Source: Thermosynechococcus sp. (GTDB taxonomy: Bacteria; Cyanobacteriota; Cyanobacteriia; Thermosynechococcales; Thermosynechococcaceae). From it: a stretch of 64,000 bases of DNA. Where the stretch lies: assembly GCF_025999095.1 (NCBI RefSeq), contig NZ_AP024678.1, positions 713,527 to 777,526 of the forward strand, read 5' to 3'. Positions 35,546-53,772 of the stretch are shown here, in pieces (the first letter of the stretch is position 1; every line of letters begins with the position of its first letter). Under the pieces are notes generated by a model, which saw nothing but the letters and a program-made list of their open reading frames with translations, had not been told where the DNA came from and searched no databases. Both the position numbers and the translations under genes were made by a program.

Positions 35546-37876
35546 ATGATGAGCAGTGATTTTCTCGCAGGACTCAATCCCTCACAGCGGCAGGCGGTAG
35601 AGCACTACTCGGGTCCCCTGTTGGTGGTGGCAGGAGCCGGTTCTGGGAAAACGCGCACGCTCACCTATCGAATTGCCCATTTGATTCGCCATCATCAGGT
35701 AGCACCAGAGAATATCTTGGCGGTGACGTTTACCAATAAGGCTGCCCGCGAAATGAAGGAGCGCCTTGAAACCCTTTTTAGCCAAGAGATGGCCAAGCAA
35801 CTCTACGGCAGAGACTGGCTGGATCTGTCCCCTGCCGAACAGCAGCGGGTGCGATCGCGCGTCTATCACACCTACACCAAGCCCCTGTGGATTGGCACCT
35901 TCCACAGCCTATGTGCTCGACTCCTGCGCTTGGAAATTGAGGCCTATCAACATCCCCAAGGGTATCGCTGGACGCGGCATTTTACAATTTTTGATGAGTC
36001 GGACGTACAAAGCCTAATTAAGGAAATTATTACGGGTGAACTCAATCTCGATGAGCGCAGGCATGACCCGCGCGCTATCCGCTACAAAATTAGCCATGCC
36101 AAAAACCGCGGACTAAGCCCAGATCAATTGGAGCAGGAGCAAAGATCGCCCGCTGGTCGTGTAGCAGCAGAGGTTTATCGTCGCTATGAGGCGGCTCTTG
36201 CCAAGAATAATGCCCTTGATTTTGATGATTTAATTTTGCGAACAGTGCATCTGCTGCAACAGCGCCCTGAGCGTCTTGACTATTGGCATCAGCAGTTCCA
36301 GCATATCCTGGTGGATGAATACCAAGATACCAATCGCACCCAATACGATTTCATTCGGCTGTTGGCCACCAATGGCACCCCCCCTCAACAGTTTCAGAAT
36401 TGGCGCAATCGCTCAATTTTTGTTGTGGGTGATATAGATCAATCCATCTATTCATTTCGCTGCGCCGATTTCACTATCCTGATGAATTTCCAGCAGGATT
36501 TTGGCGATCGCCTACCCGATCAGGATACCCGCACAATGATCAAGTTGGAAGAAAACTATCGCTCCGTCGCCAACATTTTGCAGGCCGCCAATTATCTCAT
36601 TGAGCACAACAGTGAACGCATTGATAAAGTGCTACGTCCCACCAAGGATCCCGGTCCGCCCATTCACTGTGAATGTTGCGACACCGAAGCCGATGAAGCC
36701 TATTTCATTGCCCAACAGATTAAAGCCTTGGGCAGTCAATCCCTCGAACCCCAATGGGGACGGTTTGCGATTCTCTACCGTACCAATGCCCAATCTCGCC
36801 CCTTTGAGGAGGCTTTAGTTCGCGCCAATATTCCCTACACCGTGGTCGGTGGTCTCAAGTTCTATGAGCGCAGGGAAGTCAAGGATATTCTCGCCTACCT
36901 GCGGCTGCTGCAAAACCCTCAAGACACCGTGAGTCTGCGGCGAATTATCAATGTGCCGCGCCGCGGCATTGGCAAAACGACGCTAGAGCGCCTCAGTGAG
37001 GCTGCCCAAACCCTTGGCATTTCCCTGTGGGACTTGATTGCTGATACCGAATCCATGACGCCGTTGGCCGGGCGAGCTAGCCGTGCACTGCAGCAGTTTG
37101 TGACCCTCATGACCCGCCTGCGATCGCTAGTAGACGATATCGAACTGCCCGAACTGGTGAAAACCGTGATTGAAGAGACAGGCTACCGCCGCGAGCTCGA
37201 AAACGAAGGCACCGACGAAAGCTTAGAGCGACTGCAAAACCTGATGGAATTGGTCAACGCTGCCCAGCAATTTAGCGAGGAGAATGCGGAGGCCAGCCTC
37301 AGCGATTTCCTCAACAGTTCTGCCCTCACCTCAGATTTGGATACATTGCAAGAGGGAGAGGGGGTCGTCTCCCTAATGACCTTGCATGCTGCCAAGGGGC
37401 TAGAATTTCCCGTTGTCTTTTTAGTGGGGATGGAACAGGGACTGTTTCCCAACTTCCGCAGTCTCAACGACCCCATGGCCCTAGAAGAGGAACGCCGCCT
37501 CTGCTATGTGGGCATTACCCGTGCCCAGGAGCGCCTCTTTCTGACCTTTGCCCAAAGCCGTCGTCTCTACAATGGCAGGGAAGACACAATACCGTCGCAA
37601 TTTCTGACGGAGCTACCCCCAGAACTGCTCACGGGCAATGTTCAACGCCGCCCTCCAAGGGCCGCTGTCACGCAGGTATCCCCCTCGCAGTTGAGCAGGG
37701 GTGCTGCTTCTCCTTGGCGGGTGGGCGATCGCATTCTCCATCCCGTCTATGGCGAAGGGGAAATTACCCATGTCTTCAATGTGGGAGCGAAACTCTCTTT
37801 GGCAGTTCGCTTTCCGCGACGCGGTCAGAAAGTCGTCGATCCGCGCCTGACCCCCCTTGAGAAGCTCAGCTCCTAA
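35546..37876 (+). CDS. pcrA: UvrD/PcrA-type DNA helicase
   Basis: Superfamily 1A 3'-5' helicase for nucleotide excision and replication repair. The 776 residues have Walker A AGAGSGKT near residues 30-36, motif Ia (FTNKAAREMKERL), Walker B VDEYQDTN near 254, motif III GDIDQSIYSFR, motif IV (ENYRS) and the C-terminal VTLHAAKGLEFPVVFLVGMEQG-like motif V/VI (LMTLHAAKGLEFP, YVGITRAQERL). The end has a Tudor-like PcrA tail (VGDRILHPVYGEGEITHVF). Preceded by a weak ribosome site; a second Met follows directly. It is the last host gene before the island. Confidence 0.93.
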   Translation: MMSSDFLAGLNPSQRQAVEHYSGPLLVVAGAGSGKTRTLTYRIAHLIRHHQVAPENILAVTFTNKAAREMKERLETLFSQEMAKQLYGRDWLDLSPAEQQRVRSRVYHTYTKPLWIGTFHSLCARLLRLEIEAYQHPQGYRWTRHFTIFDESDVQSLIKEIITGELNLDERRHDPRAIRYKISHAKNRGLSPDQLEQEQRSPAGRVAAEVYRRYEAALAKNNALDFDDLILRTVHLLQQRPERLDYWHQQFQHILVDEYQDTNRTQYDFIRLLATNGTPPQQFQNWRNRSIFVVGDIDQSIYSFRCADFTILMNFQQDFGDRLPDQDTRTMIKLEENYRSVANILQAANYLIEHNSERIDKVLRPTKDPGPPIHCECCDTEADEAYFIAQQIKALGSQSLEPQWGRFAILYRTNAQSRPFEEALVRANIPYTVVGGLKFYERREVKDILAYLRLLQNPQDTVSLRRIINVPRRGIGKTTLERLSEAAQTLGISLWDLIADTESMTPLAGRASRALQQFVTLMTRLRSLVDDIELPELVKTVIEETGYRRELENEGTDESLERLQNLMELVNAAQQFSEENAEASLSDFLNSSALTSDLDTLQEGEGVVSLMTLHAAKGLEFPVVFLVGMEQGLFPNFRSLNDPMALEEERRLCYVGITRAQERLFLTFAQSRRLYNGREDTIPSQFLTELPPELLTGNVQRRPPRAAVTQVSPSQLSRGAASPWRVGDRILHPVYGEGEITHVFNVGAKLSLAVRFPRRGQKVVDPRLTPLEKLSS

Positions 37877-38476
37877 ACTCGGCTCATACTCTCCAGCTCT
37901 CGATGTTCAGGTTTGTGACCAATGAGTAGGTTCACCAGCCGTTGAGTTTGTTCAATGAGTTTGTTGACCGAAACGCCTACACTCTGCCCATCCTCTTGAG
38001 TAGTTCAGGTGCAACCTGTCTGTAACATAGGGGATTGGTAGGAGCGGATCAAAACTGGATGGAGTCCTCCCGGGATGGGTCATCTCCTTGGCAATAAACA
38101 AAATTGAGTTTGCGGTCAGTGGCGTGGATCCTGCAGCCATTCGGTATTAGAACTGAATGGGTCCTTTGGGAAGGTAGAGGTGGTAGAGTACGCGTGCTAA
38201 CGCATGGCTACACGGACCTCAAAATGTCCTTCTAGATATCATCTCAAGTTTAAGTTACTTAAGGCAGCGGATAAGCCTCTGAGAAATCAAATACCCTGCG
38301 CTGAACCCACTCACCCCCCGCCTAGGTTACAAACGCGTGTAAATCAGCATGTGTTCACCTAAACCTCTTGATAGTGTTGCCGGATGACTCGTTTCGCAAC
38401 TGGTCATTGCGCCGCCCGACTGCTAGCGTTTCGGCCACCGCGCGGAGTGAGTCGGCTGGAAGCGCGTGTTGGGCGA
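37877..38476. other. Gap at the left edge of the foreign island
   Basis: Six hundred bases without a convincing gene between the host helicase and the first island gene. No tRNA, no obvious terminator hairpin and no direct repeat matching the tRNA-Leu region was found by eye. The last 100 bases (from about 38380) become GC-rich and lack HIP1 sites, so the junction is probably within this stretch, but its exact point is not visible. Confidence 0.5.
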
Positions 38477-39628
38477 TTACTCGATGTTTGCATCTATCTT
38501 TTGCTGCACAAATTCACGTGCCAAATCCAATATCTCCTCGATACTCCTGCAACTATAGTTTGTTCCCATCACAACTTTACGTGCCAAATCCAATATCTTC
38601 TTGATACGCTCCCAACCATAGTTTGTTCCCAGCCACCATCCAGGAACGATTTCAATAGAGTCTCCTTCCACCAAGTGCGGTTTGTTCGGATAGAGTTTCT
38701 GCTTATCACGGGCTATGTATCTCCGTATCCTTCCATGCTTTTCTGATGCAAATCGGTCAAGAAAACCAGGATCAGCTTCCGCCAAAAACTGAAAGACCTT
38801 TACCATGAACTCTTTCGCCGATGCAGCCTCGTACGTCTTGCCTTCAAACACGAATGAAAAACTGCCTGTGGTTCGGGATCGGGAAGTCTGCTTCCGGTTT
38901 TTTGGTGCCCGGCGCATAGCCGTTTGTTGATGCGACGGTATCGGATATGCAGAAACGACACCAAGATGGTGATTCGATTTTAAAAATTCGCTACACAAAT
39001 CCAAATCCGGCCTATAGCCACAGAGATCTTCAACTTTTTCGGCTAATAATTCCAACAACAATGAATCAGGCTCTTCAAGCAAACTCTTCCAAGCTCTTGG
39101 GAGTGTTGCCTCAATTTCTCTACTCCGGGCCACGTTTTGATAATCTGCACGTGCAGATTCTAAAGCTTCGCCAGAACACACTCTTTCATAGTGGAGATAT
39201 CGTTCAAGCCTGCTGACCGCTTCTTCGATCTCACGCTCAAGAAGGTCGAGCTTATATACTCTCCTTTCATCATATCGGCCCTGTTCAGCAGGAAGATAAA
39301 AACTCCACTCTTGTCCATCTGTCAGGACGGCCACTGGAACTCCCGAATGAAAGGCGTATTGGAATAGCTGTCTATCAGCCCCTTCCGAAATGCCAACCCT
39401 CTTGACCTCAATAAATATCAATGGACGAAGGGCCGGATGACAGAGTGCAAAATCGACACGGCCCCCTTCGACCGAGAATTGGGGGACAACTACATTTGTA
39501 TCAAATACGGGCCATCCTAGTTCCTGCAAGATCAGAAGAAGAATTCCCTGGGAAACAGCAGCCTCAGATATAAACTCACCACGCCGGAGACGTTCTCGAA
39601 TCGTTTCTATATGGTTTGAAATTGTCAT
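38477..39628 (-). CDS. Restriction-like PD-(D/E)XK nuclease with HsdR_N-type domain
   Basis: A 383-residue protein. Residues 10-125 look like the type I restriction HsdR N-terminal nuclease fold: helix ISEAAVSQGILLLILQELGWPVFD, then the catalytic core with Asp in GGRVDFALCHPALRPLIFIEVKRVG (D near 58, E-x-K near 73-75), then LTDGQEWSFYLP. The middle is helical with unknown role. The end (about 335-380) contains a near-exact tandem copy of one 21-residue unit (GTNYGWERIKKILDLARKV / GTNYSCRSIEEILDLAREF). The first Met gives the full nuclease domain. It probably cuts or senses DNA, but no partner methylase is adjacent. Confidence 0.7.
   Translation of the reverse strand: MTISNHIETIRERLRRGEFISEAAVSQGILLLILQELGWPVFDTNVVVPQFSVEGGRVDFALCHPALRPLIFIEVKRVGISEGADRQLFQYAFHSGVPVAVLTDGQEWSFYLPAEQGRYDERRVYKLDLLEREIEEAVSRLERYLHYERVCSGEALESARADYQNVARSREIEATLPRAWKSLLEEPDSLLLELLAEKVEDLCGYRPDLDLCSEFLKSNHHLGVVSAYPIPSHQQTAMRRAPKNRKQTSRSRTTGSFSFVFEGKTYEAASAKEFMVKVFQFLAEADPGFLDRFASEKHGRIRRYIARDKQKLYPNKPHLVEGDSIEIVPGWWLGTNYGWERIKKILDLARKVVMGTNYSCRSIEEILDLAREFVQQKIDANIE
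38516..38631 (+). repeat. 53-bp near-identical repeat, 63-bp period, in the nuclease 3' end
   Basis: Copies at 38516-38568 and 38579-38631 (beginning ACGTGCCAAATCCAATAT) are nearly identical and keep the reading frame, so the repeat adds 21 residues to the protein. It looks like a recent in-frame duplication. Confidence 0.85.
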
Positions 39629-39703
39629 TTATACACCTTCTTTTTTACAACTTATTACGAGTATGCTTATTTACGACCGCAAAAACTCGCGCCGCAATTC
39701 GGT

Positions 39704-40000
39704 CTAACAAGTTTCACCGGTTTGTGCCTCAAAAACAATGTCATCCCAAAAACAGTAGTAAAGGTGTGACCACCTTTCATAGATTTTTCTAAAGATGACC
39801 GGGTTATCATCTTCCGATAACGCCAAAGTATCAACTTTGCCCGAGTGCTGTACGCCCGTGGGAAATTCTGACTGCACCAACTGACAATTGAACACTGTTT
39901 CAAGATTCCGTTCGACAAGTATTTGAAGATTTTTCTCAAGTGCAAAATTGAATTACATCAGAACAGGTAACTTTTGATCTGTGATTTCAAATAGTGACAT
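39704..40000 (-). pseudogene. Remnant of a DUF5655/DUF91-like nuclease-type protein
   Basis: From ATG 40000 the frame reads MSLFEITDQKLPVLM, then a TAA stop at about 39953-39955. It then continues in the same frame as FNFALEKNLQILVERNLETVFNCQLV (two parts), EFPTG and GKVDTLALSEDDNPVI. This is the N-terminal pattern of the DUF5655-like / NucS-like putative nucleases (helix, E-K-x-L-Q-x-L-x-E-x-N-L-E, H-x-G-x-x-D-T-L). After PVIF the sequence no longer follows the family, where V-I-I-E-Y-K is expected, and stops at 39704, so most of the protein is gone. One nonsense change plus a 3' truncation make it non-functional. Family recall is by eye. Confidence 0.55.
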
Positions 40001-40299
40001 AGATTTTTCTCAACGATACTTTGATTTTGCAAGGGGCAAGCCAACGCAAGAAACTGTTGAAAAAACCCTTTTTCGCGGAGCGAAGCCTGCCTGGGGTGGC
40101 TAGCGCGGCGGAGTGAGGGGGCATGCCAAGCGGTTGGGGCAGGGATTTTCGGCTAATTCGGCGTCTCAAACACACAGATTTTCCTCACACTATGTACTAG
40201 TGCGTACAGTTTCCATTGTACATCCACTTTCAATTTCGAGTGCAGCCTGAATCGGTTCATGTGTTTGTGAATACAAATGTGCGATGTTCCTCTTGGGTT

Positions 40300-40546
40300 G
40301 AAGGGACTGCAGTCAGGTTTTCCTCAACTCCATCACGAGGGCCTCCTGCGCGGGTGAAAGCCTTTTTTGCAGACGGTGCGCTGTGTGTGGGCGCTCTTCA
40401 AAGGTGGTGCGGTGTTTCCACTTGGACACCGTCATGGGGGAGGTTCCGTAGCGCCTGGCCAGCATGCAATCGAGTCAGAGCTCGCCGCAATTCCCGGCCG
40501 AATCGCGGGCGTGGTGCGAGTGCCCTTTGTGTAGCCGGATGAGCAT
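40300..40546 (-). pseudogene. Decayed IS481-type transposase fragment
   Basis: On the minus strand three frames together rebuild the N-terminus of an IS481/IS3-like transposase. They give a start M-L-I-R-L-H-K, then KGTRTTPAIRPGIAASSDS in a second frame, then LARRYGTSPMTVSKWKHRTTFEERPHTAHRLQ in the first frame (helix-turn-helix), and LSPAQEALVMELRKT ending at TGA. At least two frameshifts and one nonsense codon are present, and the DDE integrase core is missing. No inverted repeats were found. It marks past mobile-element activity just upstream of the defence operon. Confidence 0.55.
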
Positions 40547-40635
40547 GCACTGACCTCCTTAAACCGTCGGACCATGCCCGGAAGCAATCTCAGCTAGGAT
40601 GCTGCGGGCCATCAGGTAACTATGGTGGGAAGATA

Positions 40636-40664
40636 TTGTATAGTCGCCTGCTGCATTGTATAAT
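40636..40664 (+). promoter_or_regulatory. Sigma70-like promoter of the defence operon with direct repeats
   Basis: TTGTAT (40636-40641), a 17-base spacer and TATAAT (40659-40664) form a near-consensus promoter 32 bases before the GTG of the first operon gene. The octamer ATTGTATA occurs twice (40635-40642 and 40655-40662), exactly 20 bases apart, and the block is flanked by TGGGAA and TTTCCCG, an imperfect inverted repeat. The repeats could be a repressor site, which is inference. Confidence 0.7.
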
Positions 40665-40696
40665 TTCCCGCCATATTACAGAGCAACGCAATCGCA

Positions 40697-42373
40697 GTGA
40701 ACGACGGTGACAACAACCTGGCTCCGGGCGACGTCGTCGCGGGCTTGGAACCTTCGGAGCTGGTCGAGATCCAGCGCGTCGCTCCCTTCGGCAATAAGAC
40801 GCTGGTTGAAGGCGTCGGGCTCCAGTCCGGCCGGATGGTGAAGCGGCCTCTGACCGCTGAGGAGCTGGCCGCGCTTGTCAAAGTCCGCGGCCGATTCCGT
40901 ACGTTCGATGGCGATGCCAGCCTCTTCCTCCTCGGCGTCGAGGCCGAGCGCATCCGCATCGCCCATCAGTTCGACCCGCTTTTTGCCGTCAACTCCAGCA
41001 TCGTGGATCCACTGCCTCACCAGGTCGAGGCCGTCTATCGCTATCTTTTGCCCCTTCCCAGAATCCGGTTTTTGCTTGCCGACGATACAGGTGCCGGCAA
41101 GACGATCATGACCGGCCTTTTGATCAAAGAGCTGCTCTTCCGGGGAGTGATCCAGAAGATCCTCATCATCACCCCCGGCGGCCTGACGAAACAGTGGCAA
41201 GAAGAGGAGTTCCAGGAGAAGTTCGGCCTCCACGCGCGGCTGGTGGATCGCGCGTCTTTCCAAGCGGAGCCCGGCCAGTTCTCCCGCAACGAAGAGGGGA
41301 TCTTCGTCACCTCCATCGATTTCCTGGCGCGGAATGAAGGCTGTCTCAAGGCCGCATCGGCAACTCAGTGGGACCTCGTGGTGGTGGACGAGGCCCACAA
41401 GCTCTCGGCCTATGAGTACGGCACCAAGCTCGAGGAGAGTAAACGCTACAAGGCGCTGAAGGCGATCGCCCCCAAGACCGATCATCTGCTCTTCCTCACG
41501 GCGACGCCGCACCGAGGACGAAAGGACACCTTCCGCCGGCTTCTTTTGCTGCTCGATGAGGACCTGTTCCAGAAAGATGAACACGTTGCCGACCGGGTGC
41601 GCGAGCAGGCGGCGCCCTACGGGGCTTCAGGAGCGGAGGATTTCGAGGACGAGTGCCCGATCAGCGAGGCGCGCAACCGCTTCTTCCTCCGCCGGCTGAA
41701 GGAGGAGATGGTGAACTGGGACGGGCAACCCCTTTTCAAGCCGCGCCACACCAAGACGATCGGCTACGACCTCACCCCTGAGGAGAAGACGCTCTACGAC
41801 GCGGTGACGAGCTACGTCCGCTCGAAGCGCAAGGAGGCCAAGGCGAAGAAGAACCGGAACGTTGAGCTGACCCTCATGGTCATGCAGCGGCGGCTGGCCA
41901 GTAGCCTCTACGCAATCACGCGGACGCTGGAAAACCGGCTGCGTGCCCTCAACGAGGTCCTCGCCATCCTGCGGGATCCGCGCCGGTCGGAGGCGGAGAA
42001 GAAGCGGCTTCTGCGGGCACCCTCTGATCTGAGCGACCCACAAGACATCACGGAATACGAAGACCTGACCGAAGAGGAACGCGAGCGGATCGATCAGCGG
42101 ATCTTCCGCTAGGTTCTCACCGATGACCCGGACAAGGTCGAGGAAGAACGGGACGAAGTCGAGCGCCTTTTCCGCCTGGCCGAGGGCCTCAAGGATCACA
42201 CGGAAGCGAAGTTCGCCGAACTGCTCGCCGTTCTGGATTCCTCCGACGTGATCCGCGCGGAGGTTGGCGTAAAGCAGACCCGAGACTGGGGGCTCTGGCG
42301 ATTGGCCGAGCAACGGATGGCGCGCACGCCACCGACTGCACAATTAGCATACACGGGAGGAAGCGATAGATGA
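40697..42373 (+). pseudogene. SNF2/DEAD-type helicase broken by an in-frame TAG and 3' deletion
   Basis: First gene of the operon. From GTG 40697, 471 codons are open. They encode an N-terminal domain, then Walker A in DDTGAGKTIMTGLLIKELLF (131-136), motif Ia-like ITPGGLTKQW, DEAH in VVDEAHKL near 230, and motif III FLTATPHRG. TAG at 42110-42112 stops it. The same frame then continues without any other stop (VLTDDPDKVEEERDEVERLF, AKFAELLAVLDSS) to a TGA at 42371-42373. That TGA overlaps the next gene's ATG as ATGA. The whole C-terminal RecA lobe (motifs IV-VI) is absent, so besides the nonsense codon a deletion after LAVLDSS is likely. A 471-residue N-terminal lobe could still be made. Confidence 0.75.
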
Positions 42374-45300
42374 AAACGGTTCGCGATGCCTGCCAACTCC
42401 AACCCAACGCCCTTTCGATCAAGGTCAGCGACCAGATCGAGCAGCTCGACGAACTGATCGCCGAGGAGCATGACGGGATCGCTTTCTTTGAGCGAACTCA
42501 CATCACGCAGGGCATGCAGGACCTGATCAGCGAGGGCATCGCGCGCCTTGCGGGGGCTTCATCCCAGGCGGTCTTTCATCTCAAACAGGCGATGGGCGGC
42601 GGCAAGACGCACCTGCTCGTCGGTTTCGGCCTGCTGGCCAAACACCCCGCGCTGCGCAGGAAGTATTGCGCGGGGGTGGCGCATATCGATGCCTTTGAAA
42701 GCACTGCGATCGCGGCGTTCAATGGCCGCAACAGTCCAGACCACTTTTTCTGGGGTGAGATCGCCGAGCAGCTCGGCAAGGGCGAGCAGTTTCGCGAGTT
42801 CTGGACTTCTGGCCCGAAGGCGCCGGACGAAAAGGACTGGCTCAAGCTTTTCGAAGGCGACCGGCCGGTCCTGGTCCTGCTCGACGAGATGCCGCCGTAC
42901 TTCCACTACCTGGACACGCAGAAAGTGGGCAACGGTACGGTCGCAGACATCGCCACGCGCGCCTTCGCCAACCTGCTAACCGCCGCGGGCAAGAAAAAGA
43001 ACGTCTGCGTCGTTGTTTCCGACCTGGCGGCAGCCTACGAGACCGGCGGTAGACTTATCAACCGTGCGCTTCAAGACGCACGTGCCGAACTCGGTCGGCA
43101 GGAACGCGCCATCACCCCAGTAGACCTCGCCGCCAACGAGATCTACGACATCCTGCGCAAGCGCCTATTCACCAAGCTGCCCGACAAGTCGGAGATTGAC
43201 GGGATTGCCAGTGCCTACGGGCGCAAGCTTGTCGAGGCGGCCAAGGCCAAGACGACGCATCGCGGCGCTGAGGCGATCGCCGACGAGATAGCGGCCACCT
43301 ATCCCTTCCATCCGCGGTTCAAGAACGTCGTGGCGCTGTTCAAGGAGAACGAGCAGTTCAAGCAAACCCGCGGCCTGCTGGAGCTCGTCTCGCGCCTGCT
43401 CAAGTCTGTCTGGGAGCGCAAGGACAACGACGTCTTCTTGATCGGCCCGCAGCACTTTGATCTTTCCATCCCCGAGGTGCGCGACAAGCTCACTGAGATT
43501 TCCGGCATGCGCGATGTGATCGCCAAGGACATCTGGGACGCCCAGCAGTCCGCGCACGCTCAGTTGATCGACCTTGAGACCGGAAACGATGCGGCACAGC
43601 AAGTAAGCACGCTTCTGCTGACCGCAAGCCTTTCTACTGCGGTCAATGCCGTGAAGGGCCTCACGCGCGAGGAAATGGTCGAGTGCCTAGTGACACCGCT
43701 GCGCGAGCCGTCGGAGTTCCTGACCGCCTTCCAGGAGCTGGAGAAAGCCGCCTGGTACTTGCACCACACGCCCGAGGGCCGCTTTTACTTCGACCGCCAG
43801 GAGAACCTGACCAAGCTTCTGCAGAGCCTCGCCAACGATGCGCCGGAAAACCAGATCGATGAACTGATCCGCCACCGTCTGCGCGAGATGTTCAAGCCGA
43901 CGCGCAAGACGGCCTACGAGGAGGTTCTACCACTGCCGCGCCTTGACGAGGTGGCCGAGCGCGTGCGCCGCGGCCGCGTGCTCGTGATCGTAAGCCCCGA
44001 TTCGAAGATCCCGCCTGCGGAAGTGCAGCGCTTCTTCGAGGGGCTGAGCCAGAAGAACAATCTGCTGGTCCTCACCGGTGACAAGACGGCGATGGGCAGC
44101 GTCGAGAAGGCGGCCCGCCAGCTCTATGCGGCGCAGAAGGCCGACGGGCGTATCCCGAAGGGCCATCCGCAGCGCGAAGACCTCGAGCGCAAGCAGGCGG
44201 CCTACGAGCAGGACTTCAACGCCACGGTGCTCGGGCTCTTCGACAAGGTGCTGTTCCCGATCCAGCGCGCCGGCCGGGAGGCTCAGCTCGCCGCCAAGGC
44301 GCTCGACATGACGCGCGACGCGACCAAGCCCTTCGATGGCGAGGCGCAGATCGAAAAGACCCTGGTCTCCAACCCGCTCAAGCTCTACCTCGATGTCGAG
44401 AAGGACTTCGACGCGATCCGCGACAAGGCCGAGGACCTGCTCTGGCCCGCCGGCCAGGCCGAGACGCGCTGGTCTGATGCCGCCGACCGCTACGCGGAGC
44501 AGGCAGGCATGCCCTGGCTGCCGCCGCGCGGTCTCGACTGGCTCAAGGGCATCGCCATAAACCGCGGCCTTTGGGAGGACCTCGGCAACGGGTACGTGAC
44601 CAAGAAGCCTGCGAAGAAGCGCACTTCGGCCCAAGTCGTGATCGAGCAGGGCCCGGATGACGAGGGGCGCGTGCGCCTGAAGGTCAACCCGGTGCATGCC
44701 GGTCCGGCGCCGCGCATCCACTACGCCGAGGAATCACCGGTATCGGAGTCGAGCCCGGTGCTCAAAGAGAACCCGTTCACGACGAAAGCCTTGCGCGTGC
44801 GCTTTCTCGTCTGCGATCCTTCCGGCCAGTACGAAACCGGCGATCCGGTGGTCTGGCGCAACCGGCTCGTGCTGCGCAATCGGCTCAGCGAGCAAGGCGG
44901 CAAGCGGCTGGTCGAACTCTTCGTCGCCCCACGCGGCGAGATCCGCTACACGCTCGACGGCAGCGAGCCGCGTGACGGCACACGGTACGAAGGGCCCGTC
45001 GAGATCGGCGACGGCGAGGTGCTGCTGCGCGTCTTCGCCACCGCCGGCGACCTCGAGGCCAAGGACGAGTTCCGCTTCCCGGCAAAGGGCAAGAAGGGTG
45101 TGCAGCTCGACGAGACCAAGCCCGCGCGCCTCATCTCCCGCACGGGCCACAAGCTCGATTCGCGAGCTTCGACTTTCGAAGGGCTCAAGCAGGCGGGTGA
45201 CCTGGGCACCCTCTTCGAAAGCGTGACGCTGACCGTCGGCCAGGGCGCGCAGGTCGCGCAGCTCATGGTCGGCGAAATCCAGGTGGAGGCCACCTTTCTC

Positions 45301-45453
45301 ACTCAGATCCTCGAGAAGGTGCTCGACAAGTTCCCGCCGGATGCGCCGATCACCATGAGCTTCCGCAAGGCGCATTTCCAATCGGGGCACGACCTGAAGC
45401 AGTTTTGCGAAAAACTCGGCATTGAGCTTGCCCAAGGGAGCGTCGAGCAGTGA
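42370..45453 (+). CDS. DUF499 ATPase of the defence operon
   Basis: A 1027-residue P-loop ATPase. Walker A is in QAMGGGKTHLLVGFGLLA (GGGKT at 76-80) and Walker B in VLVLLDEMPPY (170-173), with a sensor-like CVVVSDLAAAYE near 220. The middle third is helical. Near 845-905 a small beta domain of chitobiase/Fn3 type (VAPRGEIRYTLDGSEPRDGTRY) is inserted, and a helical C-terminus follows. It matches DUF499 proteins that travel with DUF1156 methylases in defence islands. ATG 42370 overlaps the preceding frame (ATGA) and has GGGAGGA upstream. Its stop overlaps the next GTG (GTGA). It is GC-rich, unlike host genes. Likely a motor or loader for the complex; the exact role is inferred. Confidence 0.85.
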   Translation: MKTVRDACQLQPNALSIKVSDQIEQLDELIAEEHDGIAFFERTHITQGMQDLISEGIARLAGASSQAVFHLKQAMGGGKTHLLVGFGLLAKHPALRRKYCAGVAHIDAFESTAIAAFNGRNSPDHFFWGEIAEQLGKGEQFREFWTSGPKAPDEKDWLKLFEGDRPVLVLLDEMPPYFHYLDTQKVGNGTVADIATRAFANLLTAAGKKKNVCVVVSDLAAAYETGGRLINRALQDARAELGRQERAITPVDLAANEIYDILRKRLFTKLPDKSEIDGIASAYGRKLVEAAKAKTTHRGAEAIADEIAATYPFHPRFKNVVALFKENEQFKQTRGLLELVSRLLKSVWERKDNDVFLIGPQHFDLSIPEVRDKLTEISGMRDVIAKDIWDAQQSAHAQLIDLETGNDAAQQVSTLLLTASLSTAVNAVKGLTREEMVECLVTPLREPSEFLTAFQELEKAAWYLHHTPEGRFYFDRQENLTKLLQSLANDAPENQIDELIRHRLREMFKPTRKTAYEEVLPLPRLDEVAERVRRGRVLVIVSPDSKIPPAEVQRFFEGLSQKNNLLVLTGDKTAMGSVEKAARQLYAAQKADGRIPKGHPQREDLERKQAAYEQDFNATVLGLFDKVLFPIQRAGREAQLAAKALDMTRDATKPFDGEAQIEKTLVSNPLKLYLDVEKDFDAIRDKAEDLLWPAGQAETRWSDAADRYAEQAGMPWLPPRGLDWLKGIAINRGLWEDLGNGYVTKKPAKKRTSAQVVIEQGPDDEGRVRLKVNPVHAGPAPRIHYAEESPVSESSPVLKENPFTTKALRVRFLVCDPSGQYETGDPVVWRNRLVLRNRLSEQGGKRLVELFVAPRGEIRYTLDGSEPRDGTRYEGPVEIGDGEVLLRVFATAGDLEAKDEFRFPAKGKKGVQLDETKPARLISRTGHKLDSRASTFEGLKQAGDLGTLFESVTLTVGQGAQVAQLMVGEIQVEATFLTQILEKVLDKFPPDAPITMSFRKAHFQSGHDLKQFCEKLGIELAQGSVEQ

Positions 45454-46025
45454 GCGAGAAACCTGCCACCGTGGACTTCGGCGCCCCCGAAGGGTTTGGT
45501 GCGCACGTCTTCCGCGTCGAGATCCCGGCCGCGCGCGCGGGCGAGGTCCGCATCGTCGAGGACTACGGCTACCGCGGCAGCGAAGCCGGCATTCCCCGAG
45601 AAGAGGAGCGCGTTGTCCTCGAACGCCGCATCTGGTCCGCAATCGCCGACGTCGCCCGCCGCGAGTTCAACAGCCGTCTGAAGGCCGCGGGCCTCAAGAC
45701 CGGCCGCTGGCACGCAGGCAACAACCTGGTCGAGCGCCTGCTGGGCCGCGAACTCTGCGTCCTCGCCTGGGCCGCGGAGAAGGCGACCGACGCCGAGCTG
45801 CCGGTGATCGGCAGCAAGTGGGCGGCGCTGCGTCCCGAGGAGCGCTGGTGGCTCTTCATGGTGACCGTAGCCGAGGCCGGCCTGCCGGACGACCACGACC
45901 GCGGCTGGCGCCGAGCGTTGCACCTGGCGCTCGCCGACGGCGAGGCGCCCAAGCCGAGCCGCCGTCGCCCGCGCCCCGCCGAGCCGGATCTCCTCGAGTT
46001 GCCGCTTTTCCGGGGGAAGGCATGA
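45450..46025 (+). CDS. DUF3780 protein of the defence operon
   Basis: A 191-residue soluble protein: TVDFGAPEGFGAHVFRVEIP at the N-terminus, YGYRGSEAGIPREEERVVLERRIWSAIADVARREFN (in two parts) in the middle, LEAGxxTGRWHAGNNLVERLLGRELCVLAWA-type segment near 80-105, and a charged Arg/Pro-rich tail. These match what I recall as DUF3780, a family known only beside DUF499 and DUF1156 genes. No catalytic residues are obvious; a bridging or regulatory subunit is plausible. It starts at GTG 45450 overlapping the DUF499 stop, and its TGA overlaps the methylase ATG, so all three are translationally coupled. Confidence 0.8.
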   Translation: MSEKPATVDFGAPEGFGAHVFRVEIPAARAGEVRIVEDYGYRGSEAGIPREEERVVLERRIWSAIADVARREFNSRLKAAGLKTGRWHAGNNLVERLLGRELCVLAWAAEKATDAELPVIGSKWAALRPEERWWLFMVTVAEAGLPDDHDRGWRRALHLALADGEAPKPSRRRPRPAEPDLLELPLFRGKA

Positions 46026-49000
46026 ACCGCGCCGCCACCGAGCACGCCGCCGTCGTGCCGCTCTCGCTTGCCGAGGCGCCCGCCATCATTGAGCGGCTGC
46101 TGCCGGTGCAGAAGCTCTCGGCCGAGGCGTACAAGGAGCAGATGGCGGTGCACGGCAAGACCCTCACCGCCCTCGGCTCCTACTGGAAGGGGCGCAAGCC
46201 GCTGATCCTCGCCAAGGCCTGCGTGCTGGGCTGCCTGCTGCCGGCCACCGACGACCCCAAGCGCGACCTCGAGATCTTCGAGATGCTCATGGGCATGGAC
46301 GAGCGCTCGTTTGCCGCCCGCGCCAAGCGCCGGCCGAAACCGAAGGAGATCCTCGGGAAACTGTCGCTCGCACGCATCCGCGACTACTTCGAAGTCACGC
46401 CCGACGACGCGCTGCCGCAGTCGTCGCCGGTGGACTGGTCCAATCCGGCCTACGCCAAGGCCAAGGTCGCCTGGCGCAAGGACCTTCCTGAATCCGAGCG
46501 TCGCCGGCTCGAGGCGCAGATGCTGCCCAAGGTTCCGTATCGCACGCTCGTCGAAGGGAGTTACCGGCCCGAAGAGGTGCCGGACGTCCACGACCACATC
46601 TGGGAGGAGGTCAACGCGCACCTCGGCACCCAGGCGCGTTCCTTTCCGGAGCTCGTCGAGCAGCTGGGCATCATGCGCTTCGGCCACCGGCCGCGCGTGG
46701 CCGATACCTTCTGCGGCTCGGGGCAGATCCCGTTCGAGGCGGCGCGGCTGGGCTGCGACGTCTACGCCTCCGACCTCAACCCCGTGGCCTGCATGCTCAC
46801 CTGGGGGGCGTTTCACATCGTCGGCGGCACGCCCGAGGCGCGCGCGCAGCTCGAGCGCGACCAGCAGGCGCTGGTCGAGAAGGTGCAGACCGAGATCGAC
46901 CGTTTGGGGATCGAGGAAGACGGCCGCGGCTGGCGGGCGAAGGCGTTCCTCTACTGCGTCGAGGCCCGCTGCCCGCAGACCGGCTGGATGGTGCCGCTGC
47001 TGCCCACGCTCGTCGTGAGCAAGGGCTACCGGGTCATTGCCGAGCTGGTGCCCGACCCGGCGAATAAGCGCTACGACATCGCCATCCGTTCGGGGGTGAG
47101 CGACGCGGAGCTCCAGGCGGCAGAAAAGGGCACGGTGCGCTCCGACGGGCGCGGCCAGGACCCGTACCTGGTGCACACCGTGGACGGGCGCGAGTACCGC
47201 ACCAAGATCTCGACCCTGCGCGGCGACTACCGCAAGCCGGACGGCACCACCGGCAACCGCCTGCGCCTGTGGGAGAAACACGACTTCAAACCGCGGCCGG
47301 ACGATATCTTCCAGGAGCGGCTCTACTGCATCCAGTGGATGCGGCCGAAGGGGTCAGGCAAGAGCTACGAGTACGAGTTCCGCGCCGTGACCGAGGAGGA
47401 CCTCGCGCGCGAGCGCATCGTGGAGGAGTACGTGGCGCAGCACCTGGCCGAGTGGCAAGAGAAGGGCTTCGTGCCCGACATGCGCATCGAACCGGGGGAC
47501 AAGACCGACGAGCCGATCCGCACGCGCGGCTGGACCCACTGGCACCACCTGTTCAACCCAAGGCAGTTGCTGTTGGGGGCGCTGATCAACCGCGAGCGTC
47601 GGGCTGGAGTCAAGTTAATCGTAGCGCAATGCGTCGACTGGAACGCTCGACTATGCACTTGGAATCGGTTTGGAGGCGGTGGCGGGATTGTTCAGCACAC
47701 TTTTACTAATCAGGCGCTTAATACTCTGTTTGACTACGCCTGCCGGGGATTCGCCTACACGCTTGGCTTCCTGGTTCCGAGCTATCGCTCGTTCCCACTG
47801 AACCATGTGGCAAGGACCGTCGCCAACATCTCAGCCGATCAGATCAACGAGCACGTCGACACCTTCATCACCGACCCCCCCTACGGCGACGCAGTGAAGT
47901 ACGAGGAGATCCTCGAGTTCTTCATCGCCTGGCTGCGCAAGAACCCGCCTCCGGAGTTCGCGAACTGGGTCTGGGACAGCCGCCGCGCGTTGGCCATCCA
48001 GGGCGAAGACGAGGATTTCCGCCGCAAGATGGTCGCGGCCTACCGGCGCATGACCGAGTGCATGCCGGACAACGGCCTGCAGGTCATCATGTTCACCCAC
48101 CAGTCGGGCGCCATCTGGGCCGACATGGCGAACATCGTCTGGGCCGCGGGCCTGCAGGTGACCGCCGCCTGGTACGTGGTGACCGAGACCGATAGCGCCC
48201 TGCGCGAAGGCAGCTACGTGAAGGGCACGGTGCTGCTGGTGTGCCGCAAGCGCAAAGGCGAACGCAAGACCACGCGCGATGACCTCGCCTGGGAGATCCA
48301 GGAGGAGGTGGAAAAGCAGGTGCAGGCACTCACGGGCCTCAACCAGGAGGCGCGGGGGCTGTACCGCGACGAGAACGTCTTCGCGGACGCCGACCTGCAG
48401 ATGGCCGGTTACGCCGCGGCCCTGCGTTGCCTGACCCGCTACGCTCGCATCGACGGCCGCGACATGACCACCGAGGCGCTGCGGCCGCGGGTGAAGGGCG
48501 AGACCACCTTCGTGGACGAGCTGATCGCCTTCGCGGTGGACACCGCCAACGGCTGCCTCGTGCCGCAGGGCATCGACCGGCGGCTCTGGGAGAAGCTCTC
48601 GGGCGCCGAGCGCTTTTATCTCAAGATGCTTGACCTCGAAGCACGTGGCGTGCACACGCTCGACAACTACCAGAACTTCGCCAAGGCCTTCAAGGTGCGC
48701 AACTTCTACGCGCTGATGGGCGATCGGCGCGCCAATCACGCGCGGCTCAAAAGCGCCGTCGAGTTCGGCCGCGCCGAGATGGGCGAGGGCTCGGAGCTGT
48801 ACGGTTCGCTCCTGCGCGCCGTGCTCTATGCGCTGATGGAACTGCAACAGGAAGTGGACACCGACCAGGTGCTGGCGCACCTGACGCACAACGTGCCCGA
48901 CTACTACGGCGACCTGACCCAGCGCGAGCGCATCATCGCAGTGGCCGATTATTTGGCTGGTCGGCTGAAGTTCGTGCGTCCCGAAGAGGCGAGCGCGGCG

Positions 49001-49042
49001 CGCGTGCTGGCCGAGGCGGTGCGCAACCAGCGGATTGGCTGA
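46022..49042 (+). CDS. DUF1156 adenine-specific DNA methyltransferase
   Basis: A 1006-residue methylase. The N-terminal DUF1156-like part (LLPVQKLSAEAYKEQMA, ILAKACVLGCLLPATDDP) is followed by motif I for S-adenosylmethionine (RVADTFCGSGQIPFEAARLG, near 227) and the catalytic DPPY of N6-adenine methylases (TDPPYGDAVKYEEILEFF, DPPY at 618-621). The C-terminal half is helical. Motif I precedes DPPY, so it is not circularly permuted. ATG 46022 is chosen because it overlaps the DUF3780 stop; the open frame upstream is a shadow of that gene. It should mark self DNA so that the helicase/nuclease parts act on unmodified phage DNA. The stretch 47600-47790 is visibly less GC-rich than its surroundings. 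Confidence 0.88.
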   Translation: MNRAATEHAAVVPLSLAEAPAIIERLLPVQKLSAEAYKEQMAVHGKTLTALGSYWKGRKPLILAKACVLGCLLPATDDPKRDLEIFEMLMGMDERSFAARAKRRPKPKEILGKLSLARIRDYFEVTPDDALPQSSPVDWSNPAYAKAKVAWRKDLPESERRRLEAQMLPKVPYRTLVEGSYRPEEVPDVHDHIWEEVNAHLGTQARSFPELVEQLGIMRFGHRPRVADTFCGSGQIPFEAARLGCDVYASDLNPVACMLTWGAFHIVGGTPEARAQLERDQQALVEKVQTEIDRLGIEEDGRGWRAKAFLYCVEARCPQTGWMVPLLPTLVVSKGYRVIAELVPDPANKRYDIAIRSGVSDAELQAAEKGTVRSDGRGQDPYLVHTVDGREYRTKISTLRGDYRKPDGTTGNRLRLWEKHDFKPRPDDIFQERLYCIQWMRPKGSGKSYEYEFRAVTEEDLARERIVEEYVAQHLAEWQEKGFVPDMRIEPGDKTDEPIRTRGWTHWHHLFNPRQLLLGALINRERRAGVKLIVAQCVDWNARLCTWNRFGGGGGIVQHTFTNQALNTLFDYACRGFAYTLGFLVPSYRSFPLNHVARTVANISADQINEHVDTFITDPPYGDAVKYEEILEFFIAWLRKNPPPEFANWVWDSRRALAIQGEDEDFRRKMVAAYRRMTECMPDNGLQVIMFTHQSGAIWADMANIVWAAGLQVTAAWYVVTETDSALREGSYVKGTVLLVCRKRKGERKTTRDDLAWEIQEEVEKQVQALTGLNQEARGLYRDENVFADADLQMAGYAAALRCLTRYARIDGRDMTTEALRPRVKGETTFVDELIAFAVDTANGCLVPQGIDRRLWEKLSGAERFYLKMLDLEARGVHTLDNYQNFAKAFKVRNFYALMGDRRANHARLKSAVEFGRAEMGEGSELYGSLLRAVLYALMELQQEVDTDQVLAHLTHNVPDYYGDLTQRERIIAVADYLAGRLKFVRPEEASAARVLAEAVRNQRIG

Positions 49043-49043
49043 G

Positions 49044-51758
49044 ATGAGCGGCATCCGGCGCTTCTCTTCCCGTCGCCAGCGCCTCGATCACGCCTTCCTG
49101 AACGAGAGGCTCAGGGGCGCGCGCGCCTACCGCCGCATCGCCGGCTACTTCCGCAGCTCCATCTTCGAGCTGGTGGGCGAGGAGATCGCACAGATCCCGA
49201 AGGTGCAGGTGGTCTGCAACAGCGAGCTCGACGCCGCCGACCTGATCGTGGCGCGGCATGCGCGCGAGACCGCGCTTAAGGAACACTGGAACCAGGCGGT
49301 GCCTGAAGTCGAGGCGTTGCTGCACCGCAACCGCTACCGGCGGCTGCACGCGCTGCTCACCAGCGGCCGCCTCGAGATCCGTGTGGTGCCCAAGGACCGC
49401 GTCTTCATCCATGGCAAGGCTGGTGTCATCGAACTGGCCGACGGCAGCAAGACCTGCTTTCTGGGCTCGATCAACGAAAGCAAGAGCGCCTTCGCCGAGA
49501 ACTACGAAATCCTCTGGGAGGACCCTTCGCCCGAGGGCGTGGCCTGGCTCGAGGAGGAGTTCGCGGCGCTGTGGGCCGAGGCCTACCCGCTGCCCGAGGC
49601 CATCGTTGAGGAAGTCGAGCGCATCGCCAAGCGCGTCGAGATCCGCTTCGGCGACGCGGCGCCCGCCGAGCTACCTGCCGCGGCGCTCGCCGAGGCGCCC
49701 ATCTACCGCGGCGGCGAGCAACTGCAGCCTTGGCAGCGCTCGTTCGTCACCATCTTCCTGGAACACCGCGAGACCTACGGTAAGGCGCGGCTTTTGCTCG
49801 CCGACGAGGTTGGCCTGGGCAAGACGCTCTCGCTCGCGGCCAGCGCCTTGGTCGCGGCCCTGCTCCAGGACGGCCCCGTGCTGATCCTGTGCCCGGCCAC
49901 CCTCACCTTGCAATGGCAGGTCGAGCTCGCGGATAAGCTCGGCATCCCGAGCATGGTCTGGTCCTCGGCGAAAAAGGTCTGGCTCGACCACAAGGGCCAC
50001 GAGATCCGCACGCGCGGCGCCGAGGACATCGCCCGCTGCCCGGCGCAGATCGCCATCGTCTCCACCGGCCTCATCTTCCACGACTCGGCCGAACGCCAAT
50101 ACCTGCTCGAGCGCAGGTACGGCACCGTGATCCTCGACGAGGCCCATCGCGCCCGCCGCCGCGGAGGCTTGGGCAGCCGCGAGAAAGAACCGAACAACCT
50201 GCTCGATTTCATGTTGCGAATCGGGCCGCGCACGCGACACCTGCTGCTTGGCACCGCCACGCCGATCCAGACCGAGGTGCGCGAGCTGTGGGACCTGCTG
50301 CGCATCCTGAACAGCGACGCCGATTTCGTGCTGGGGCGCGAGGTATTCAGCCGCTGGGCGGACTTCGAGAAGGCGCTCCCCCTAGTGAAGGGTGAGGTGA
50401 ACCCGCCTGACGAGCGCGAGGCCTGGGAGTGGGTGCGCAACCCCCTACCGCCGGCGCGCGAGCACCCCCTGTTCGGGACGCTGCGGCTGCAGCTCGGGGT
50501 CGCCGACAACCACTTCTTCACCGACCGCGGGTTCGGCTCGCTCGGGTTCCTCGAGCAGCAGGCGCTCGCAGAGGCGCTCGCCCCCGGCTTTCTGCAGGAC
50601 CACAACCCCATCGTGCGCCACACGGTCCTGCGTCGCCGCCGCACGCTCGAAGACGCGGGGCTGCTGGAGCGTGTTGGGGTTGACGTGCACCCCGACCCCG
50701 ATGCCCCGCCCGGAACGTACCGGGGTGTCGAATTGCAGGGGCTCGGACTCGTGACCAATCACCCCTTCGATCTCGCCTACCGCGCGGCCGAGGCCTTCAC
50801 CGAGGCGTTGCGCAAGCGCTCGAAGGCGGCTGGCTTCATGAAGACCCTGCTGCTGCAGCGCATCTGTTCGAGCTTTGCTTCCGGCCGCGCCACGGCCGAG
50901 AAGATGCGCCGGCGGGAGCATCTCGAGGACGAGGAAGCGCCGCTCGAGCTCGACGGCATCCTCGAGGGACTGACGAACGAAGAGGCCGCCCATCTCGATT
51001 CGATCATCGCCGAGCTGTCCCGTCCCGAGGCCCGCGATCCCAAGATTGCGGCCGTGAAGTACTTTCTCACCGAGCACCGCACCGAGGGCAAGACCTGGCT
51101 CGAGCACGGCTGCATCGTCTTCAGCCAGTATTACGACACCGTTCGCGCCCTCGCGGCCGAGTTGGCCACCGCGCTCTCCGGCGAGCCCATCGCGATCTAT
51201 GCCGGCGCTGGCAAAAGCGGCATCCACCGCGACGGCGACTTTGCGACCGTGGAGCGTGAGGAGATCAAGGCAGCGGTGCGCAAGCACGAGATTCGGTTGG
51301 TGATCGCAACCGACGCAGCGTGCGAGGGGCTGAACCTGCAGACGCTGGGCACGATGATCAACGTGGACCTGCCCTGGAACCCATCGCGGCTCGAGCAGCG
51401 GCTCGGCCGCATCAAGCGTTTCGGCCAGCGGCGGCAGACGGTGGACATGCTCAATCTCGTCTACCACGACACACAGGACGAGAAGGTCTATGCGGCGCTT
51501 TCGCGGCGCATGAAAGACCGTTACGACATCTTCGGCAACCTGCCGGATACCATCGACGACGAGTGGATCGAAAACGTCGAGAAGCTCGAGGCGATGATGG
51601 ATCAGTACCTGCACTTGCGGAAGCAGGCGCGTGACGCTTTCGAGATCCGCTACGAACGCCAGGTGGATCCAGACAAGAACCGGTGGGAGCTCTGCTCCCG
51701 CGTTCTCGCAAGGCGGGACATCGTGGATGCGCTCTCAACGCCTTGGGATTCTCGATAA
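49044..51758 (+). CDS. Phospholipase D domain + SNF2 helicase of the defence operon
   Basis: A 904-residue two-part enzyme. Residues 1-170 form a phospholipase-D-type domain with the HKD-like IHGKAGVIELADGS (H123, K125) and GSINES. A SNF2 helicase follows: Walker A ADEVGLGKT (257-261), DEAH in VILDEAHRAR (365-368), GTATPIQTE, and in the second lobe EGLNLQTLGTMINVDLPWNPSRLEQRLGRIKRFGQ (read in parts), the Q-R-x-G-R-x-x-R-x-G-Q motif VI. This PLD-helicase combination accompanies DUF1156/DUF499 systems and is functionally reminiscent of DISARM. ATG 49044 lies one base after the methylase stop. Its C-terminus seems complete. Confidence 0.9.
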   Translation: MSGIRRFSSRRQRLDHAFLNERLRGARAYRRIAGYFRSSIFELVGEEIAQIPKVQVVCNSELDAADLIVARHARETALKEHWNQAVPEVEALLHRNRYRRLHALLTSGRLEIRVVPKDRVFIHGKAGVIELADGSKTCFLGSINESKSAFAENYEILWEDPSPEGVAWLEEEFAALWAEAYPLPEAIVEEVERIAKRVEIRFGDAAPAELPAAALAEAPIYRGGEQLQPWQRSFVTIFLEHRETYGKARLLLADEVGLGKTLSLAASALVAALLQDGPVLILCPATLTLQWQVELADKLGIPSMVWSSAKKVWLDHKGHEIRTRGAEDIARCPAQIAIVSTGLIFHDSAERQYLLERRYGTVILDEAHRARRRGGLGSREKEPNNLLDFMLRIGPRTRHLLLGTATPIQTEVRELWDLLRILNSDADFVLGREVFSRWADFEKALPLVKGEVNPPDEREAWEWVRNPLPPAREHPLFGTLRLQLGVADNHFFTDRGFGSLGFLEQQALAEALAPGFLQDHNPIVRHTVLRRRRTLEDAGLLERVGVDVHPDPDAPPGTYRGVELQGLGLVTNHPFDLAYRAAEAFTEALRKRSKAAGFMKTLLLQRICSSFASGRATAEKMRRREHLEDEEAPLELDGILEGLTNEEAAHLDSIIAELSRPEARDPKIAAVKYFLTEHRTEGKTWLEHGCIVFSQYYDTVRALAAELATALSGEPIAIYAGAGKSGIHRDGDFATVEREEIKAAVRKHEIRLVIATDAACEGLNLQTLGTMINVDLPWNPSRLEQRLGRIKRFGQRRQTVDMLNLVYHDTQDEKVYAALSRRMKDRYDIFGNLPDTIDDEWIENVEKLEAMMDQYLHLRKQARDAFEIRYERQVDPDKNRWELCSRVLARRDIVDALSTPWDSR

Positions 51759-51990
51759 TGGGTTTACCAAATCCGGGCGCATGTCCGAAGTCGCTCACCC
51801 TACTGGTCCTGCCACCCTCACTCGCCTGGGGCGAGAACGGTGGGGCGAAGGACGCAGTCCAGGAACGTGTGAAGGCAATCAGCACGCGGTGCGGCGGAAA
51901 GGAGCGGCTGTACCGCAACACGCTCCGCTGTTACGTGAGCGAGAGCAAACACAAGCACAAGAATCGAAGCCGCTAACCGGAGGCAAACCG
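51759..51990. other. Gap between the defence operon and the HEPN module
   Basis: 232 bases with no supported gene. A weak ribosome site (CCGGAGG, ending 8 bases before ATG 51991) serves the next gene. The block around 51800-51840 (CACCCTCACTCGCCTGGGGCGAGAACGG) holds a GC-rich imperfect hairpin (CTCGCC...GGCGAG, 51821-51835) that could be a terminator or attenuator, but without a T-run. Confidence 0.5.
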
Positions 51991-52560
51991 ATGCAGGTCA
52001 ATGAAGTCAACACCGCTTTCGAGATCTTGCTCGAAGAGATCGAGCTAGTCGCCAACCAACTCAACGAAGACGGGGCACAAGCCTTCAAGGAAGGCAATTA
52101 CGATACGGCGCGCCGCGCCATAGAGGAAGCGGATCGTCTCGTGGAGTTCCGCGACAAGGTCAAGGCGCTTCAAAAAGAATGGGCTTCTCTCTTGGCAAGG
52201 ACACCGCAGCGCCCAAAGAAGGCGAGCCGCGAGGTCAAAAGCCGTTTGCCGCGGGGACTTCGTACCCCAGAGGACACCTTTCGCCGCCCTATTCTGGAGT
52301 CGCTCGTCGAGCTCGGTGGAGAAGCCCCGACTGGCAAGGTTTTGGACCTTCTTGAGAAGAAAATGCGCGCCGAGCTGACGAAATACGACCTTCAGCCGTT
52401 GCCATCGGATCCTAAGTCCATTCGTTGGCGCAACACGGCCCAGTGGTGCCGCAATACCCTGGTTCGCGAAGGTTTGATGAAGCAAGATTCTCCCCACGGG
52501 ACTTGGGAGATCTCGGACTTAGGGCGGAAGGCATTGAAAGATGAAAGCCCGATCGCGTGA
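51991..52560 (+). CDS. Mrr_N-type winged-helix protein
   Basis: A 189-residue protein in two parts. Residues 1-75 form a long helical, probably coiled, region (FEILLEEIELVANQLNEDGAQAF, then ADRLVEFRDKVKALQKEW). Residues 90-185 look like the N-terminal winged helix of Mrr restriction proteins: RRPILESLVELGGEAPTGKVLDLLEKKM, then LPSDPKSIRWRNTAQWCRNTLVREGLM and GTWEISDLGRKAL. No nuclease domain is attached. ATG 51991 is preferred over the upstream TTG-opened frame because CGGAGG precedes it and the upstream codons overlap the helicase gene. It overlaps the next gene by 20 bases. It may be the DNA-sensing or antitoxin partner of the HEPN protein. Confidence 0.75.
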   Translation: MQVNEVNTAFEILLEEIELVANQLNEDGAQAFKEGNYDTARRAIEEADRLVEFRDKVKALQKEWASLLARTPQRPKKASREVKSRLPRGLRTPEDTFRRPILESLVELGGEAPTGKVLDLLEKKMRAELTKYDLQPLPSDPKSIRWRNTAQWCRNTLVREGLMKQDSPHGTWEISDLGRKALKDESPIA

Positions 52561-53506: not shown

Positions 53507-53511
53507 TTCTG

Positions 53512-53634
53512 ATGACCGAACTAGCCGACTACTGCGTCGGCGCAGCGGCGGTGCCGGTGGGAGAGACCACCCTGGCGGATCAGACCGTCTCCTTTACCGC
53601 GCAGGTTACCGACACGGTGCAACGGGTGAGTTGA
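53512..53634 (+). other. Orphan 40-codon frame at the right junction
   Basis: A short open frame (MTELADYCVGAAAVPVGETT, then LADQTVSFTAQVTDTVQRVS) ends at TGA 55 bases before tRNA-Leu. No ribosome site precedes it, and it follows the DUF3644 stop by only a few bases. It could be the surviving 3' end of a host gene cut by the island, or chance. I do not recognise a family. Confidence 0.3.
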
Positions 53635-53688: not shown

Positions 53689-53772
53689 GCGGAACTGGCG
53701 GAATTGGTAGACGCGCTAGATTCAGGTTCTAGTGTCCGCAAGGACTTCGGGGTTCAAGTCCCCGGTTCCGCA
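53689..53772 (+). tRNA. tRNA-Leu (anticodon CAG)
   Basis: 84-nt class II tRNA: acceptor GCGGAAC/GTTCCGC, anticodon stem CTAGA/TCTAG around TTCAGGT (anticodon CAG), a long variable arm (TGTCCGCAAGGACTT) and T arm CGGGGTTCAAGTCCCCG. No CCA encoded. It is the first host gene after the island; its 5' end faces the island, so the island did not replace its 3' end. Confidence 0.95.

Follow-up and report, generated by a model that had tools for sequence, protein, structure and literature searches.

A Type-2 BREX-related (BR) system is defined by a DUF499 protein, a DUF3780 protein, an N6-methyltransferase and an HKD/PLD-helicase (PMC12839542). Its DUF499 component is an AAA+ ATPase that often carries FnIII-like domains before the C-terminus, and a SNF2 helicase gene of the kind that stands upstream of the operon studied here is not included in the published definition (PMC12839542). 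The helicase of the Hma or Type-1 BR systems is HmaA (PMC8565338, PMC12839542). Here we compare both kinds of system with a defence island in a 64,000-nucleotide stretch of Thermosynechococcus DNA (the window), in which the front end of an HmaA-type gene directly precedes a DUF499 operon. An earlier note had read this gene as the inactivated first gene of that operon.

Integrity of the DUF499 operon

The operon consists of four core genes followed by two accessory genes:

42370..45453, plus strand: DUF499 AAA+ ATPase, 1027 aa, intact, the true first gene of the operon (domain and NCBIfam matches)
45450..46025, plus strand: DUF3780 protein, 191 aa, intact (PF12635, NF042961)
46046..49042, plus strand: DUF1156 DNA methyltransferase (DPPY), intact, start codon uncertain (NF042963, motif)
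49035..51758, plus strand: PLD-nuclease/SNF2 helicase fusion with both lobes, 907 aa, intact (PLDc_2, NF042964)
51759..52560, plus strand: Mrr_N-domain protein, accessory, in an ORF that opens at 51631, start uncertain (domain match)
52541..53506, plus strand: DUF3644 protein (PADLOC PDC-S19), accessory (domain and PADLOC match)

All four core genes passed the cut-offs of the NCBI curated equivalog models NF042961-NF042964, with matches covering nearly the full length of each gene. The DUF499 protein scored 1525 bits against a cut-off of 1200 (NF042962) and has a beta-sandwich (Fn3_assoc/CHB_HEX_C_1) at residues 848-894 of its C-terminal part. The DUF3780 protein, encoded by a stand-alone gene, scored 231 bits with PF12635 and 227 bits with NF042961 (cut-off 200). 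The methyltransferase reached 1365 bits (NF042963, cut-off 1000) and has the DPPY motif conserved in its relatives; it is a predicted N6-adenine methyltransferase. The PLD-helicase, with PLDc_2 and two helicase lobes, reached 1230 bits (NF042964, cut-off 1100). The DUF499 ATPase, stand-alone DUF3780, DUF1156 methyltransferase and PLD-helicase of the published definition are thus all present, and we identify the operon from these matches as a Type-2 BR system with every core component full length. The statement in the earlier note that the downstream genes are intact is borne out.

By analogy with the published system (PMC12839542), and as judged here from sequence, the methyltransferase would mark host DNA, the DUF499 ATPase and DUF3780 would recognise unmarked DNA, and the PLD-helicase would degrade it. 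The operon is predicted to work with its own first gene; for the upstream helicase remnant we predict no role in this mechanism, except perhaps in lending its promoter region.

The nuclease motif of the PLD-helicase (49035-51758) reads HGKAGVIE, followed by GSxNE; the last residue of the HKD motif differs in all eight copies compared. The Mrr_N and DUF3644 genes (51631-53506) were undetected by tblastn in other DUF499 loci and look like locus-specific accessories.

The truncated helicase gene and its family

Upstream of the operon, three adjoining segments were distinguished:

40697..42112, plus strand: helicase stump with an SNF2/HmaA-type lobe 1, 471 aa, ending at TAG (motifs, domain and PADLOC matches)
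42113..42253, plus strand: codons 473-519, the part of the gene that follows the TAG, with homology to the linker that leads to lobe 2 (profile and homologue alignment)
42254..42369, plus strand: junction zone with the breakpoint to the DUF499 cassette, no significant match (profile search)

The frame starts at GTG 40697, meets a TAG at 42110-42112 after 471 codons and continues for 86 more codons to a TGA at 42371-42373, which overlaps the ATG of the DUF499 gene at 42370 (ATGA), as first described. Seventeen relatives, full-length or long, were combined into a profile whose alignment (462 bits) covers codons 7-519 continuously and spans the TAG, which is codon 472. The nearest intact relative that the search turned up is a protein of 1,136 aa from a different class within the phylum; it aligns with codons 8-519. 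Because homology runs across the TAG to codon 519, the coding sequence beyond the nonsense codon is real and more than an open frame, in agreement with the earlier description of it as coherent and protein-like.

Codons 520-558 (about 42254-42370) gave no significant match in the profile search; a multiple alignment pairs them with the start of lobe 2, a pairing to which the profile search lends no support. Since homology is significant only to codon 519, we place the breakpoint between about 42254 and 42369. A GGAGG at 42356-42360, inside this zone, precedes the DUF499 gene, and the junction DNA had no match among DUF499 loci that would mark it as a recruited DUF499 leader.

The 471 residues of the stump hold an SNF2-type first lobe (SNF2-rel_dom, 2e-19; ResIII; DEAD) with the motifs GAGKT, DEAH and TATP. 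The domain search found neither Helicase_C nor NOV_C, so that lobe 2 and the C-terminal domain are absent. Well-covered relatives have two lobes and open frames of about 1,090-1,260 aa, and same-length, one-lobe homologues, which the earlier note had named as an observation that would refute its reading, did not appear among them; a single lobe is therefore not what is normal for the family. A single base change cannot account for the lost lobe 2, as the gene remains truncated beyond the TAG. By comparison with these relatives the stump is a truncated SNF2 helicase gene, inactivated as the earlier note held, and the alignments support two separate lesions, the nonsense codon and the removal of 3′ sequence that includes lobe 2, much as had been proposed. 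An SF2 helicase that lacks lobe 2 does not couple ATP hydrolysis to translocation, and helicase function would thus be lost in any case. Relocation of lobe 2 within the genome was considered and rejected: the sole other match to the stump was the PLD-helicase of the operon (31%), the query being lobe 1 and blind to an isolated lobe 2.

The best PADLOC match of the stump was HmaA (337 bits, positions 7-452 of 1176), followed by DrmD (216 bits) and BrxH (195 bits). The lower DrmD score speaks against DISARM, and the matches listed for the operon genes include neither DrmB nor DrmC. On plasmids of Meiothermus and Thermus thermophilus, relatives of the stump adjoin DUF1156 and Swt1/HEPN (DUF499-type) genes, which is the Hma arrangement; those of T. 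oshimai and of G001, the closest in the same genus, have no recognised HmaB or HmaC directly beside them. These matches assign the stump to the HmaA/Type-1 BREX-related helicases, a different kind from the system of the DUF499 operon. The stump has the HmaA-type lobe 1; the place of HmaB and HmaC is taken by a Type-2 BR cassette, and we therefore file it as a relic and not as a member of an Hma system.

The uvrD/tRNA-Leu island and constraint on the stump

Comparison with sister species delimits the island in which both the stump and the operon lie:

37862..53626: defence island between uvrD and tRNA-Leu (comparison with sister species)
37877..41991, plus strand: left part of the island in common with the sister species G002, including the leader and stump codons 1-431 (about 91% nucleotide identity)
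53517..53626: right end of the island in common with G002; the chromosome shared across the genus resumes at about 53627 (sister-genome comparison)
53689..53772, plus strand: tRNA-Leu(CAG), the right-hand landmark

The left flank is uvrD (35546-37876). In five sister species uvrD and tRNA-Leu adjoin, separated by no more than some 340-580 bp of unrelated DNA; their homology to the window stops at 37860-37874 and resumes at about 53616-53630. The interval is thus a defence-island insertion site in the genus, empty in these five species, and the cassettes at this site differ between the window and G002. No relevant paper on Thermosynechococcus defence islands was found in the literature. An integrase-type element was rejected, as there are no terminal repeats between the two island ends. 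The G+C content is 0.626 in the stump and 0.64-0.675 in the core cassette against 0.54-0.55 in the flanks, which marks stump and cassette as imports.

Two further observations concern the left part of the island. In G002 the counterpart of a 383-aa ORF with an HSDR_N-like region (38477-39628, minus strand) consists of two ORFs, 219 and 207 aa long, and the dN/dS is 0.48; this appears to be a second restriction-type gene in decay. The leader of the stump, in common with G002, resembles by eye a degraded helix-turn-helix (transposase-like) fragment at 40400-40560 on the minus strand. A promoter scan returned one promoter-like site, also on the minus strand, and is uninformative on transcription of the operon.

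G002 carries an island at the same site with the same flanks and, at about 91% nucleotide identity, the same stump. The match extends up to 41991 and begins again at 53517; what matches in the interval is limited to short helicase and methyltransferase stretches. The G002 stump (L101:11013-12440) tracks that of the window to codon 431, continues with RMGRIQRYGQ and ends after 475 codons. This decapeptide is a scrap of lobe-2 motif VI (its score was reached by 1 of 5,000 shuffles), and the in-frame fusion of codon 431 to motif VI is the trace of an internal lobe 2 deletion. Only 22 nt further on lies a separate, complete HmaA of 1,173 aa, 40% identical to the stump and followed by HmaB and HmaC genes, which together form a complete Hma system. 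The remnants are complementary: the window keeps linker codons 432-519, absent in G002, and G002 keeps the lobe 2 scrap, absent in the window. The ancestor therefore probably had a longer gene with both. Taken together, the common ancestor probably possessed a full-length, two-lobe gene, of which each lineage broke its own copy, and the downstream DNA was exchanged.

Over codons 1-431 the dN/dS between the window and G002 is 0.22 (bootstrap 0.14-0.33), compared with 0.14 for uvrD and 0.04-0.23 for other intact neighbours, and the shared part differs by one in-frame 3-nt indel. Four of the 86 residues invariant in intact relatives are changed in the window stump, which is similar to intact divergent relatives, and seven of the 86 in G002, including D129N in motif I. 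The low dN/dS means either that truncation happened recently or that lobe 1 remains in use. If an intact gene has a dN/dS of about 0.15, we estimate from the upper bound of 0.33 that neutral drift can have lasted no longer than about one fifth of the time since the split.

Retention of the one-lobe protein in both species with a function of its own, such as that of a DNA-binding or regulatory fragment, would agree with this constraint, with the open frames of 471-475 aa in both species and with the intact lobe-1 motifs in the window. However, the two copies end at different codons, the G002 copy combines D129N at an invariant motif-I residue with a scrambled lobe-2 scrap, the nonsense codon of the window lies within homologous sequence of a family whose members are two-lobed, and recent truncation explains the low dN/dS equally well. 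We consider a retained product very unlikely. Less probable still is that lobe 1 serves as a working, fixed adaptor for a swappable BREX-related cassette (Type-2 here, Type-1 in G002). The TAG hinges on a single base, with one genome per species compared, and could in principle be a sequencing or assembly error, or be read through. However, a sense codon at this place would leave the gene truncated all the same, as homology ends short of lobe 2. The genome consists of one contig, and G002 provides an independent case of a broken copy; we regard an artefactual or suppressed TAG as very improbable.

A probable relic, the proposed trigger and likely cassette turnover

To place the stump relative to the operon, 64 loci were fetched by DUF499 similarity, 41 of which had more than 3.5 kb of sequence upstream of DUF499. 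None of the 41 (DUF499-DUF3780-DUF1156-PLD-helicase) has a relative of the stump upstream of DUF499, the weak matches in four DUF499 loci being the downstream PLD-helicase. DNA directly upstream of DUF499 showed no conservation among the DUF499 loci. DUF499 genes mostly start with ATGAA regardless of the upstream sequence, so that chance alone would give roughly one in three open upstream frames an ATGA ending, and the overlap is consequently weak evidence of coupling. The 41 loci rule out that such a helicase regularly belongs to the DUF499 operon; as far as such comparisons reach, the stump is not its first gene and the operon begins with DUF499.

That the helicase was the true first component, or trigger, of the DUF499 system, lost by mutation with the other genes intact, fits a defence-type helicase directly upstream on the same strand with an ATGA overlap, but is highly improbable given its absence from 41 of 41 testable loci, a published definition without such a gene (PMC12839542), the operon's own two-lobe PLD-helicase and the presence of the stump in G002 without a DUF499 operon. 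The suggestion that the operon had lost its trigger is likewise unsupported by the complete core and by the operon-bound relatives of the stump, which sit in Hma/Type-1 BREX-related operons.

We consider it very likely that what survives in the stump is the front end of an earlier defence system of another kind, and that the present operon has lost nothing. The island would once have held an Hma-like (Type-1 BREX-related) system whose first gene encoded an SNF2 helicase with two lobes and roughly 1,100-1,200 aa. From about codon 519 to near tRNA-Leu, a complete Type-2 BR cassette bringing DUF499, DUF3780, the DUF1156 methyltransferase and the PLD-helicase, then the Mrr_N and DUF3644 genes, would have taken the place of this system, or the old DNA would have been deleted at about the time when the cassette arrived. 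The TAG would be a further lesion in the relic gene, which would now be only a long 5′ leader of the operon, and the old gene's promoter region, common to G002, may serve the new operon. We infer replacement rather than stepwise deletion and insertion. An Hma-like ancestral system is most likely, although the neighbours of the G001 and T. oshimai relatives argue against it. The dN/dS of 0.22, near that of uvrD, argues against a long-dead relic, as it leaves no room for long free drift. No donor sequence with this junction was found, and the recombination event itself is unseen; homology in the right flank combined with an illegitimate join inside the helicase would fit. Such homology-facilitated illegitimate recombination is described in PMC3240628 for naturally competent bacteria.

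The relic reading corrects the labelling of an intact defence operon as broken. It also provides a two-species snapshot of one chromosomal site that swaps whole BREX-related systems and keeps the front end of the discarded one. Such stumps inflate helicase counts and may mislead automated defence-system callers into hybrid or incomplete systems.

Overall, the locus is ordinary in kind, but as an example of defence-cassette turnover it is unusually clear. Compared with HmaA of the Hma/Type-1 BR systems (PMC8565338, PMC12839542), the stump is alike at positions 7-452 and in the lobe-1 motifs of the family, but is without lobe 2, the C-terminal domain and the HmaB and HmaC partners. The Hma system of G002 shares its island, flanks and left-hand stump with the window, and has intact HmaA, HmaB and HmaC where the window has the Type-2 BR cassette. 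Compared with the published Type-2 BR system (PMC12839542), the operon has the same four genes in the same order and at full length; the locus differs in the unrelated helicase stump upstream and the Mrr_N and DUF3644 genes downstream, and its nuclease motif is HxKxxxxE instead of HxKxxxxD, as it is in the seven other members compared.
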